Source of the DNA: Flavobacteriales bacterium | GTDB taxonomy: Bacteria > Bacteroidota > Bacteroidia > Flavobacteriales > Flavobacteriaceae | Assembly: GCA_027061855.1 (NCBI GenBank) | Contig: JAMOVT010000078.1 | Span: forward strand, 1 to 41,681 | Direction of reading: 5' to 3' | Length of the DNA: 41,681 nucleotides | Part shown: in pieces, positions 9,962-11,285 of the stretch | Layout of the letters: every line of letters starts with the position of its first letter | Numbering within the stretch: the first letter of the stretch is position 1 | Program-made: the position numbers and the translations under genes | The notes under the pieces: generated by a model | Seen by the model: the letters and a program-made list of their open reading frames with translations, nothing else | Told to the model about the DNA's origin: nothing | The model's database searches: none

Positions 9962-10004
9962 GAACCGGTCACCCTCCCGAAGTAAGTTCGGGATGCTCTG
10001 AATC
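9962..10004 (-). repeat. tRNA-Val-like fragment R4 with hairpin in place of the anticodon arm
   Basis: On the minus strand the tRNA segment TTGATTCAGAGCA is followed by a hairpin with 7-bp stem and 5-nt loop (TCCCGAA-N5-TTCGGGA, plus-strand 9975-9993) where tRNA-Val has its anticodon arm. GGGT and a degraded start of the T arm (GACCGGTTC) come next. The acceptor strand is missing. This is the left, most degraded end of the array. 9859-9961 is A/T-rich with nothing further that I can name. Confidence 0.75.
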
Positions 10005-10008
10005 AATT

Positions 10009-10254
10009 TTATTTACTTATCAAATATTCTATATATTTCCGGCTCTTTTTATTTTTCACTTCTCTTTCTCTTTGGTAAGCCAAACTTTTGGAATCAAAAA
10101 ACTCATAATAAACCAATTTCCAATCCTTGGCGCGGCCGGTAAAACCTTTATGATTTGTTCGGTGTTTTTTTAATCTTTCTTGGAGGTTGGAAGTAGAACC
10201 AATATAATATTTATCTAAAGAAGCGGAATATAATACGTAAAAATAATATTTCAT
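10009..10254 (-). CDS. Small GIY-YIG nuclease family protein (array copy A, intact)
   Basis: An 81-residue single-domain GIY-YIG protein of the UPF0213 type. It begins [10 protein letters not shown] and shows the [16 protein letters not shown] motif and then '[24 protein letters not shown]', with the expected Arg and Glu of the catalytic core. GIY-YIG enzymes cut DNA in homing endonucleases, UvrC and some R-M systems; the role of these tiny proteins is not known. It is the only one of three array copies with an uninterrupted frame. It starts directly after the T tract of a tRNA-type terminator, so expression from the tRNA promoter should be low. Confidence 0.85.
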
Positions 10255-10263
10255 AAATAAAAA

Positions 10264-10295
10264 AAGAGAGATAACTCAATAGATTTATCTCTCTT
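10264..10295 (-). terminator. tRNA-type terminator hairpin, copy A (loop inverted)
   Basis: An 11-bp perfect stem (AAGAGAGATAA / TTATCTCTCTT) is followed on the minus strand by a T tract. The 10-nt loop reads CTCAATAGAT on the plus strand, the reverse complement of the loop in the other two copies. Confidence 0.75.
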
Positions 10296-10301
10296 CTTTG
10301 T

Positions 10302-10384
10302 GGGCGATACTGAGCTTGTCCCGAACTCGTTTCGGGAATTCGAACCATTGCCCCTCCCGAAACAAGTTCGGGATGCTCTGAACC
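10302..10384 (-). repeat. tRNA-Val-like fragment R3 with two REP-like hairpins
   Basis: The minus strand reads TTGGTTCAGAGCA, then hairpin TCCCGAA-N5-TTCGGGA in place of the anticodon arm (10355-10373), then GGGGCAATGGTTCGAAT (T-arm 5' side). A second hairpin of the same family follows (10319-10337), inserted in the T arm, then CAGTATCGCCC, the intact acceptor 3' strand. The acceptor 5' strand and the 5' half of the D arm are absent, so it cannot fold as a tRNA. Confidence 0.8.
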
Positions 10385-10388
10385 AATT

Positions 10389-10634
10389 TTATTTATTTAT
10401 CAAATATTCTATGTATTTCCGGCTCTTTTTATTTTTCACTTCCCTTTCTCTTTGGTAAGCCAAGCTTTTGGATTCAAAAACCTCATAATAAACCAATTTC
10501 CAATCCTTGGCGGGGCCGGTAAAACCTTTATGATTTGTCAGGTGTTTTCTTAGTCTTTCTTGAAGGTTGGAAGAAGAACCAATATATTATTTATCCAAAG
10601 AAGCGGAATATAATATGTAAAAATAATATTTCAT
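10389..10634 (-). pseudogene. GIY-YIG nuclease copy B, interrupted by a nonsense codon
   Basis: The frame from ATG at 10634 to TAA at 10389-10391 is the same length as copy A. It carries an in-frame TAA where copy A has the first Tyr of KYYIG (reads ..SASLDK-stop-YIGSSS..). Other changes against copy A are few (for example T21S, R to L after KKH, GRA to GPA, D to E in FDS). No shift of frame. The stop removes the catalytic YIG motif, so the gene is dead unless translation restarts or reads through. Confidence 0.85.
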
Positions 10635-10641
10635 AAAAAAA

Positions 10642-10673
10642 AAGAGAGATAAATCTATTGAGTTATCTCTCTT
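10642..10673 (-). terminator. tRNA-type terminator hairpin, copy B
   Basis: The 11-bp stem is identical to the other copies, with plus-strand loop ATCTATTGAG and a T tract on the minus strand just before the copy B start codon. It follows fragment R2 in the same way that the copy C hairpin follows the intact tRNA. Confidence 0.75.
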
Positions 10674-10679
10674 CTTTGT

Positions 10680-10763
10680 GGGCGATACTGAGCTTGTCCC
10701 GAACTCGTTTCGGGAATTCGAACCAGTAACCCTCCCGAAACAAGTTCGGGATGCTCTGAACCA
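10680..10763 (-). repeat. tRNA-Val-like fragment R2 with two REP-like hairpins
   Basis: The structure is the same as R3: TTGGTTCAGAGCA, hairpin at 10733-10751 replacing the anticodon arm, GGGTTACTGGTTCGAAT, hairpin at 10697-10715 inserted between the T loop and the T-stem 3' strand, then CAGTATCGCCC. The T-stem 5' strand ACTGG is better preserved than in R3. Confidence 0.8.
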
Positions 10764-10766
10764 ATT

Positions 10767-11012
10767 TTATTTACTTATCAAATATTCTATGTATTTCCGG
10801 CTCTTTTTATTTTTTACTTCCCTTTCTCTTTGGTAAGCCAAACTTTTGGAATTAAAAACCTCATAAAAAACCAATTTCCAATCCTTGGCGGGGCCGGTAA
10901 AACCTTTATGATTTGTCAGGTGTTTTCTTAGTCTTTCTTGAAGGTTGGAAGAAGAACCAATATATTATTTATCCAAAGAAGCGGAATATAATATGTAAAA
11001 ATAATATTTCAT
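10767..11012 (-). pseudogene. GIY-YIG nuclease copy C, interrupted by the same nonsense codon
   Basis: The frame from ATG at 11012 to TAA at 10767-10769 has the same internal TAA in the KYYIG motif as copy B. It differs from B at only a few codons (for example VYYE to VFYE, FES to FNS, LINK to LISK). It lies directly downstream of the intact tRNA-Val terminator. The shared stop implies B and C are duplicates of one already inactivated gene. Confidence 0.85.
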
Positions 11013-11019
11013 AAAAAAA

Positions 11020-11051
11020 AAGAGAGATAAATCTATTGAGTTATCTCTCTT
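11020..11051 (-). terminator. Terminator of tRNA-Val
   Basis: Six nt after the 3' end of the tRNA (minus strand) an 11-bp hairpin (AAGAGAGATAA / TTATCTCTCTT, 10-nt loop) is followed by a run of eight to nine T. This is a textbook intrinsic terminator for the tRNA transcript and the template from which the other two array copies derive. Confidence 0.85.
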
Positions 11052-11057
11052 CTTTGT

Positions 11058-11131
11058 GGGCGATACTGGATTCGAACCAGTGACCCCCTGCTTGTAAGGC
11101 AGGTGCTCTGAACCAACTGAGCTAATCGCCC
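11058..11131 (-). tRNA. tRNA-Val(UAC)
   Basis: This 74-nt cloverleaf on the minus strand has acceptor GGGCGAT/ATCGCCC, D stem GCTC/GAGC, anticodon stem CCTGC/GCAGG with loop CTTACAA (anticodon TAC, valine), and T stem ACTGG/CCAGT with loop TTCGAAT. All stems pair perfectly. CCA is not encoded. It is the only intact tRNA in the window and lies inside the GIY-YIG array. Confidence 0.97.
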
Positions 11132-11161
11132 TATAATCTCTTATTTCAAATCTTCGGCTCT

Positions 11162-11228
11162 GTGACCCTCCCGAAGTAAGTTCGGGATGCTCTGAACCAT
11201 TCCGATAACTATCGGAAGAGCTAATCGC
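11162..11228 (-). repeat. tRNA-Val-like fragment R1 (5' part) with D-loop and anticodon-arm hairpins
   Basis: The minus strand reads GCGATTAGCTC (acceptor and D-stem 5' side). A hairpin with 8-bp stem follows (TTCCGATA / TATCGGAA, plus 11200-11217) in the D loop, then TGGTTCAGAGCA. A TCCCGAA-N5-TTCGGGA hairpin comes next at 11169-11187 instead of the anticodon arm, then GGGTCAC. The T arm and acceptor 3' strand are absent. It lies between the promoter and the intact tRNA-Val and should be co-transcribed with it. Confidence 0.8.
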
Positions 11229-11285
11229 TTTAATTATTCAAAGACTTTTATAGGAACGCTTGTTGTTATTTCGTCTTTGCGAGTG

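Follow-up and report, generated by a model that had tools for sequence, protein, structure and literature searches.

Why should the gene of a small nuclease be joined to pieces of a tRNA gene, and is such an arrangement a local accident or one copy of a recurrent element? The question is raised by a 41,681-nucleotide stretch of a Flavobacteriales bacterium (GenBank assembly GCA_027061855.1, contig JAMOVT010000078.1; the whole stretch is referred to here as the window, and is contig C78 of a 2.04 Mb draft genome in 117 contigs), in which an intact tRNA-Val gene is followed by an array of terminator-like hairpins, GIY-YIG nuclease frames and tRNA remnants. We found that the array belongs to a tRNA-linked, hairpin-bearing GIY-YIG family which is real and spread over the phylum Bacteroidota. 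Judged from sequence, the repeated unit may be a very small mobile element of the homing type, one which restores the gene it enters, a reading to which we give a probability of roughly 0.6.

The tRNA and nuclease array

The array lies on the minus strand, where the order is intact tRNA-Val(TAC), terminator-like hairpin, GIY-YIG frame and tRNA remnant, then repeated, and it forms a 2.9-copy tandem repeat (9962-11068, period 378) with start-to-start distances between units of 380 and 378 and a unit size below 400 bp (about 380 bp). An initial, sequence-only reading of the window had proposed a tandem array of tRNA, terminator and GIY-YIG gene, and the repeat, the intact tRNA and three terminator-like hairpins bear this out, as do the pieces of this tRNA which border the array on either side (11145-11231 and 9958-10006) and the join of the nuclease open-reading frame (ORF) end to tRNA sequence at the D loop. 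That reading also gave each of three units an 81-codon GIY-YIG gene; the three-unit layout stands, but only the gene at 10009-10254 is whole, the other two sharing an in-frame TAA at the same place, the first Tyr of YYIG. The features of the array are as follows:

11145..11231, minus strand: left pseudo-tRNA, the 5' half of tRNA-Val, with palindromes at 11200-11217 (D loop) and 11169-11187 (anticodon-arm position) (fold prediction)
11056..11131, minus strand: intact tRNA-Val, anticodon TAC (ARAGORN; Rfam RF00005, 75.5 bits)
11016..11055, minus strand: terminator-like hairpin 3' of the intact tRNA (inverted-repeat listing)
10767..11012, minus strand: GIY-YIG frame of unit 3, interrupted by TAA (frame reading)
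10678..10764, minus strand: pseudo-tRNA of unit 3, with D-loop piece, anticodon-position hairpin (10733-10751), T-arm piece, second hairpin (10697-10715) and 3' acceptor end
10638..10677, minus strand: terminator-like hairpin, copy 2 (inverted-repeat listing)
10389..10634, minus strand: GIY-YIG frame of unit 2, with the same TAA as unit 3 (frame reading)
10300..10386, minus strand: pseudo-tRNA of unit 2, with hairpins at 10355-10373 and 10319-10337 (inverted repeats, fold)
10260..10299, minus strand: terminator-like hairpin, copy 3 (inverted-repeat listing)
10009..10254, minus strand: intact GIY-YIG nuclease gene of unit 1, 81 codons (PF01541, 2.7e-17)
9958..10006, minus strand: outer pseudo-tRNA piece with hairpin at 9975-9993 and no acceptor end (inverted repeats, fold)

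Frames 2 and 3 share 97.6% DNA identity with one another and 93.5% each with frame 1. Since the same broken ORF is found in units 2 and 3, we read the growth of the array in the window as probably due to later recombination among the repeated tRNA halves. Unequal recombination, which had been named as the alternative to a spreading element, fits this later growth but, given the recurrence described below, is improbable as an account of the unit as a whole. The plus strand has two 52-amino-acid ORFs, which overlap both the pseudo-tRNAs and the GIY-YIG frames, the latter at their 3' ends.

The tRNA remnants retain a D-loop part and a T-arm part of tRNA-Val, whilst the anticodon arm is replaced by the palindrome TCCCGAA-N5-TTCGGGA; in units 2 and 3 a second palindrome occupies the T arm, and the two can pair mutually over 19 bases. 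Upstream of the intact tRNA, the 5' remnant (11231-11145) bears the same type of palindrome, and the two outermost copies (9975-9993 and 11169-11187) are identical to each other and unlike the inner ones. Neither the anticodon-position palindrome nor the second, T-arm palindrome had featured in the sequence-only reading.

The protein of unit 1 scores 63.3 bits against PF01541 (curated cut-off 22.6), and its AlphaFold model is a single GIY-YIG domain with a predicted local distance difference test score (pLDDT) of 91.2, the closest folds being the UPF0213 proteins BH0048 (1zg2) and EF2693 (1ywl), and SLX1. SLX1 is a nuclease of branched DNA. Among 25 sequences, G19 and R27 are invariant and Y17 and E63 conserved in at least 90%; the catalytic residues of the GIY-YIG domain (YIG motif, Arg and Glu) are kept. 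The ratio of nonsynonymous to synonymous substitution rates (dN/dS) is low, with a median of 0.11 over 12 close pairs (those of 15 listed pairs with dS of 0.05-2, two of the 12 including a broken copy from the window).

Recurrence across Bacteroidota

The same layout, of an intact tRNA, a terminator, a GIY-YIG gene and a tRNA remnant with a hairpin in place of the anticodon arm, recurs in other genomes and at many tRNA isotypes. Among 60 genomes (that of the window and 59 relatives), 35 held any GIY-YIG match to this query, giving 94 matches in total. A canonical tRNA lay within 300 bp of 21 of the 94, in all 21 cases on the same strand, compared to 10 of 321 control genes drawn from random stretches of 20 of the 60 genomes. 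Our second survey was a species-level scan (one genome per species) with an alignment led by this protein, from which the best 80 of 145 relatives were kept (the 80 named loci); all 80 are from Bacteroidota, in six named classes. ARAGORN called a tRNA within 300 bp in 57 of these 80, always on the same strand and in 47 cases upstream. Eight of the 57 calls are doubtful (Glu 2, Lys 1, Stop 2, undetermined 3) and are probably pseudo-tRNAs, which leaves 49. The expectations that nuclease, tRNA and hairpin form one recurrent unit, that a search of relatives would find it beyond this locus, and that genes of this GIY-YIG family go together with tRNA genes and hairpins elsewhere are all borne out. 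At several loci, the T run of a tRNA terminator is also where the gene begins.

Apparent pseudo-tRNAs at eight loci (L029, L032, L067, L217, L229, L235, L248 and L263) were called tRNA-Sec(tca), Glu(ttc), Lys(ttt) or 'Stop' by ARAGORN, and such false tRNA genes may be present in public Bacteroidota annotations. One relative, among 11 pattern matches, was on a viral contig, at the contig end.

Our sorting of the 94 matches, done in part by eye, placed 42 in a tRNA class and 52 outside it. In a FastTree phylogeny of 173 proteins, which was built on 81 columns only and in which near-copies cluster by themselves, the split between tRNA class and others required 4 changes compared to 43.8 when labels were shuffled (154 labelled rows; 0 of 300 shuffles as low), whilst tRNA isotype required 21 compared to 48.1 (102 rows; 0 of 300 as low). 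One of the 94 matches (<45 residues) was left out of the tree, 19 rows with unclear isotype were left out of the label tests, and nine isotype labels were assigned by eye. The small number of isotype changes implies that lineages tend to keep one tRNA isotype, with switches.

The hairpin in the tRNA remnants

Directly after the gene, a hairpin in tRNA context is present in 46 of the 80 loci, and over all loci the hairpin pattern gave 99 matches, spread over 61 loci and all of them on the sense strand (antisense, 0). The outer five stem pairs were imposed by the search pattern and have no value as evidence. Beyond these, pair 7 was formed in 44 of 44 cases with four pair types (shuffle maximum 36) and pair 6 in 45 of 46 (shuffle maximum 43), whilst pair 8 showed no covariation (17 of 28, chance level); the hairpin is partly covarying. 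We detected 35 3' remnants, and 27 of these fitted best the isotype of the tRNA lying upstream of them; the eight which fitted another isotype mostly match Glu or Lys library entries, which on our reading are miscalled pseudo-tRNAs.

In the genome of the window, TCCCGAA-N5-TTCGGGA occurs at 16 sites (reversed control, 0): six in the window, five in an array of tRNA-Asn remnants, and five in hairpins resembling repetitive extragenic palindromic (REP) sequences or in intergenic places. As the stem varies between genomes, the longer exact pattern AGAGCATCCCGAAN5TTCGGGAG was found in only one of 295 genomes of the class, namely this one. The tRNA-Asn array (C72:1-540, L022) consists of five tandem remnants of ~112 bp each, with the palindrome at the anticodon position and no nuclease, beside an intact tRNA-Asn. 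A second GIY-YIG tandem pair in this genome (C67:1-540, L027), its first copy cut by the contig end, has remnants which we read as tRNA-fMet 3' ends and which carry a different palindrome, TCCGCC..GGCGGA. The REP-like hairpins tipped by TCCCGAA-N5-TTCGGGA lie at C113:400-960, C70:7811 and C47:9745 (L026, L024 and L023), and sister hairpins on C113 have other tips, which seem exchangeable. In Flavobacterium hibernum (L220, ~1125-1350), three tandem 5'-side tRNA-Arg remnants of ~76 bp lie upstream of the nuclease-bearing tRNA; judging from this layout, the 5' remnants there appear to amplify separately.

Occupied and empty tRNA-Val genes

To compare tRNA genes with and without the unit, we collected 55 tRNA-Val genes from 50 Flavobacterium loci, after removal of duplicates, contig-end genes and genes without the exact core. 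Nine of the 55 bear a GIY-YIG gene and 46 do not. More generally, tRNA-Val genes lacking the unit are common and, among those listed, mostly have their own terminator downstream. One family of terminator, next to the gene, is common to seven of the nine occupied genes, and the mean terminator pair score is 29.5 among the nine, 14.0 among the 46 and 14.0 between the two sets. The element terminator family is found in three of the 46 genes without a GIY-YIG gene: L348 runs into N after the start codon, L358 keeps a downstream pseudo-tRNA, and L355 is unexplained. The sharing of a terminator by GIY-bearing tRNA-Val genes suggests that half of the target is replaced, rather than a hairpin merely inserted.

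The terminator of the displaced half was readable by script in five of the nine occupied genes, and four of these five are closer to the terminators of GIY-less genes by both best and mean score (best scores, GIY-less vs. GIY-bearing, 36 vs. 24, 27 vs. 16, 37 vs. 29 and 26 vs. 12). For example, the displaced terminator of L345 in F. hibernum has its best match in L364, an empty tRNA-Val gene of the same genome. The substitute tRNA half has the same sequence as the native half, and the two are indistinguishable. On the simplest reading, the unit would bring its own 3' half and terminator, and so displace the native one.

Possible movement and other targets

A 3.07 Mb contig of one genome (G038) has two loci which are separated by 1.58 Mb and align over 522 columns with 96.6% identity; the shared block begins ~35 bases ahead of the tRNA and ends with the last terminator, at its T run, beyond which the loci diverge. 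In F. hibernum, near-identical GIY-YIG genes (99% protein, 97% DNA identity) lie at tRNA-Arg(TCT) and at a remnant-bearing place with no ARAGORN tRNA. No empty site was found for the latter: the neighbouring permease gene is matched in all 81 genomes drawn (only weakly in G355 and G422), but the antiporter gene on the other side was not found next to it in any of 29 other loci, the majority of which stop less than 1.5 kb from the permease.

A related unit in two genera (G033 and G026; L094 and L096) lies between a truncated 5' epimerase fragment, ending at GGAGF, and a whole epimerase gene. The target is probably a sugar-nucleotide epimerase gene, and these units would follow the same logic as the tRNA units at another target. 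The start pattern of the epimerase-linked unit had no match in 296 genomes, a draw which excluded both carriers and so held no positive control.

Related lineages and REP-like palindromes

Many GIY-YIG genes outside the tRNA class lie between REP-like palindromes. Four of the 94 matches, with flanks <80 bases, were dropped. With the 99th percentile of 312 control genes as threshold, flank-to-flank repeats, direct or inverted, stood out in 66 of the 90 usable loci; the tRNA class accounts for 25 of these (among 38) and the other loci for 41 (among 52). Mismatched flank pairs pass each threshold in 1.3% of cases. Outside the tRNA class, inverted repeats exceeded the threshold in 25 of 52 loci and direct repeats in 23 of 52. 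Thirteen of the 24 genomes holding this class have no match to PF01797 and, in genomes without a Y1 transposase match, 18 of 24 non-tRNA loci still had flank repeats above threshold. Within genomes, the flanks also tended to be more alike where the proteins were more alike (rho 0.214; null mean 0.052, sd 0.033; 0 of 2000 permutations), in a test whose class labels rest on a reading of the loci by eye.

A look for REP dispersal in random 20-kb stretches gave the flank's own genome as best for only six of 41 flanks, the stretches being too short to be informative. One REP pattern was counted, and was present in 16 of 60 genomes at up to 15 copies each, including two (G017 and G023) without a GIY-YIG match. 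The link to REPs is an association, and movement of REPs by the GIY-YIG enzyme is a candidate only. A likeness to REP-associated tyrosine transposases (RAYTs) had been suggested for the array in the window; it applies to the related GIY-YIG lineages that lie between REP-like palindromes, whilst for the tRNA units we prefer a mitochondrial parallel (below).

A proposed target-restoring element and its alternatives

The element, as we understand it, is a single-domain GIY-YIG gene together with a replacement 3' part of a tRNA and the terminator of that part, ending in a hairpin. The unit layout, its recurrence and link to tRNA genes, the terminator common to GIY-bearing genes, the low dN/dS and the hairpin covariation are read directly from sequence; we infer that the nuclease cuts, that the unit moves and is copied by repair, and that the native half is displaced. 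The enzyme would break a tRNA gene at or near the anticodon arm, and repair, with the tRNA halves as homology arms, would copy in the replacement 3' half with its terminator, followed by the nuclease gene and the hairpin. Joined to this replacement, the 5' half of the host gene would keep the tRNA functional; the nuclease gene would come after the new terminator, and downstream of the hairpin the native 3' half would persist as a pseudo-tRNA. With 3' halves and terminators now present more than once, arrays could grow or shrink by unequal recombination; in the window, two of three nuclease copies are dead.

Several observations weigh against this scheme. The intact tRNA which adjoins the gene is normal, and its escape from the enzyme is unexplained, as is the D-arm piece which separates the gene from the hairpin. 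Where the unit lies 5' of the tRNA (G028, G021 and G020), a mirror version of the scheme is needed. In the tRNA-Val comparison, the best scores of displaced terminators were drawn from 46 GIY-less and only nine GIY-bearing genes; two of the nine (L326 and L338) lack the shared terminator, and to the eye their proximal and displaced copies resemble one another; L363, apparently inside an array, has a distal terminator of element type; and the best native match of L353 is L346, a different site (leader score 54 of 90). The flanks past the displaced terminators of L340, L345, L352 (61 bases only) and L353 match no GIY-less locus. As no empty site shares the downstream flank, the native origin of the displaced terminator rests on type, not orthology, and our confidence in a target-restoring element is lowered. 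Gene conversion between paralogous tRNA genes could also exchange blocks such as that in G038, and in a draft of 117 contigs the array copy number may be an assembly effect.

Alternatively, the enzyme may be a RAYT-like mobiliser which acts on palindromes, either REPs or the hairpins on tRNA arms, and moves them in single-stranded form or through cutting of cruciforms, in which case the tRNA link would be one lineage's preference of hairpin. Flank repeats above threshold in 66 of 90 loci (41 of 52 outside the tRNA class), the tracking of protein similarity by the flanks (rho 0.214), the presence of the tRNA palindrome within REP-like hairpins of its own genome, and a fold closest to UPF0213 and SLX1 are all consistent with this. 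The account is nevertheless unlikely in our view, since a common terminator among the GIY-bearing tRNA-Val genes suggests that a target half is replaced, REP copies are few (no more than 15 per genome for the pattern counted, with G017 and G023 lacking a GIY-YIG match), and the random own-genome stretches of 20 kb were best for only six of 41 flanks. A broader and more tentative possibility is that the single-domain GIY-YIG nucleases of Bacteroidota form a phylum-wide mobilising class with lineage-specific hairpins, one branch homing to tRNA genes, where it would swap the anticodon arm for a hairpin and restore the tRNA, and another driving REP-like palindromes in genomes without RAYTs.

If a tRNA region simply happened to contain a GIY-YIG gene and then underwent ordinary tandem duplication, unequal recombination and gene conversion, the nuclease would have played no part. 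The broken ORF common to units 2 and 3 fits such a history, as do tandem tRNA-Val arrays without the gene (L168 and L157), the pseudo-tRNA array without it on C72, and the failure to find strictly orthologous empty sites. We consider it improbable, however, as a full explanation: it sits poorly with recurrence at many isotypes over the phylum, hairpin covariation, a terminator tied to the gene in several genomes and low dN/dS. Very improbable is a host function, in which the nuclease would act on RNA or repair tRNA loci and the pseudo-tRNA serve as a decoy, terminator or regulatory leader; genes which begin at the T run of a tRNA terminator, and the recurring pseudo-tRNA hairpin, could be so explained, but presence is patchy (35 of 60 genomes), copies are broken, and epimerase and REP versions exist. 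An RNA decoy as the main function was rejected, as were a group I intron (with Rfam on 9900-11300, only tRNA reaches the gathering score) and an integrase element, the unit having no integrase-sized ORF.

If the target-restoring reading is right, what annotations record merely as the gene of a small GIY-YIG protein would be a mobile element which uses tRNA genes without destroying them. It would also explain false tRNA calls (Sec, Glu, Lys and 'Stop') beside real tRNA genes, and provide a candidate enzyme for REP-like palindromes in RAYT-less genomes; a phylum-wide class, if it exists, would represent a second, unrelated enzymatic solution to REP mobility and one of the smallest self-propagating homing elements.

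Comparison with known systems

In the open-access literature, among the matches listed, we found no description of the element; subscription papers were mostly outside this search, and a prior description is possible. The closest fold and sequence relatives of the single GIY-YIG domain are the UPF0213 proteins (BH0048, 1zg2; EF2693, 1ywl) and SLX1. Integrative elements which use tRNA attachment sites leave the tRNA whole after insertion, and in this the unit is like them, but it differs in having no integrase, in its size of ~380 bp and in entry at the anticodon arm.

REP/RAYT systems (TnpA-REP) are alike in that a small nuclease gene is flanked by palindromes which follow the protein lineage, and in the occurrence of hairpin-only copies; a gene between inverted palindromes is a likeness of the non-tRNA class only (25 of 52). 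The enzyme differs, being a GIY-YIG and not a Y1 HUH enzyme, the hairpins of the unit lie in tRNA remnants, and a target half appears to be replaced. The unit gene belongs to PF01541, and there was no match to PF01797 in its own genome or in two genomes of the same genus.

The mobile ORFs (mORFs) of fungal mitochondria are, as we read them, a closer parallel to the tRNA units than RAYTs. In these, an endonuclease ORF brings a substitute gene end and the native end lies downstream (Allomyces atp6; Glomus atp6, atp9, cox2 and nad3), and the endonuclease of the Glomus atp9 mORF is a GIY-YIG enzyme (PMC3630166). The likeness is an endonuclease ORF in a target gene, a substitute end carried with it, and a native end which, in the tRNA unit, is probably displaced downstream; the corresponding trait here is the gene-linked terminator of seven of nine Flavobacterium tRNA-Val genes, beside an intact tRNA. 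The tRNA unit differs in its bacterial chromosomes, tRNA targets and 81-residue single-domain enzyme, and in the hairpin in the displaced half, the tandem arrays and the relatives tied to REP-like palindromes; all 80 named loci are from Bacteroidota, none mitochondrial. If our reading is right, mORF logic extends from mitochondria to bacteria: the unit works like a target-restoring homing element, yet it is neither a member of the mitochondrial group nor a RAYT system.

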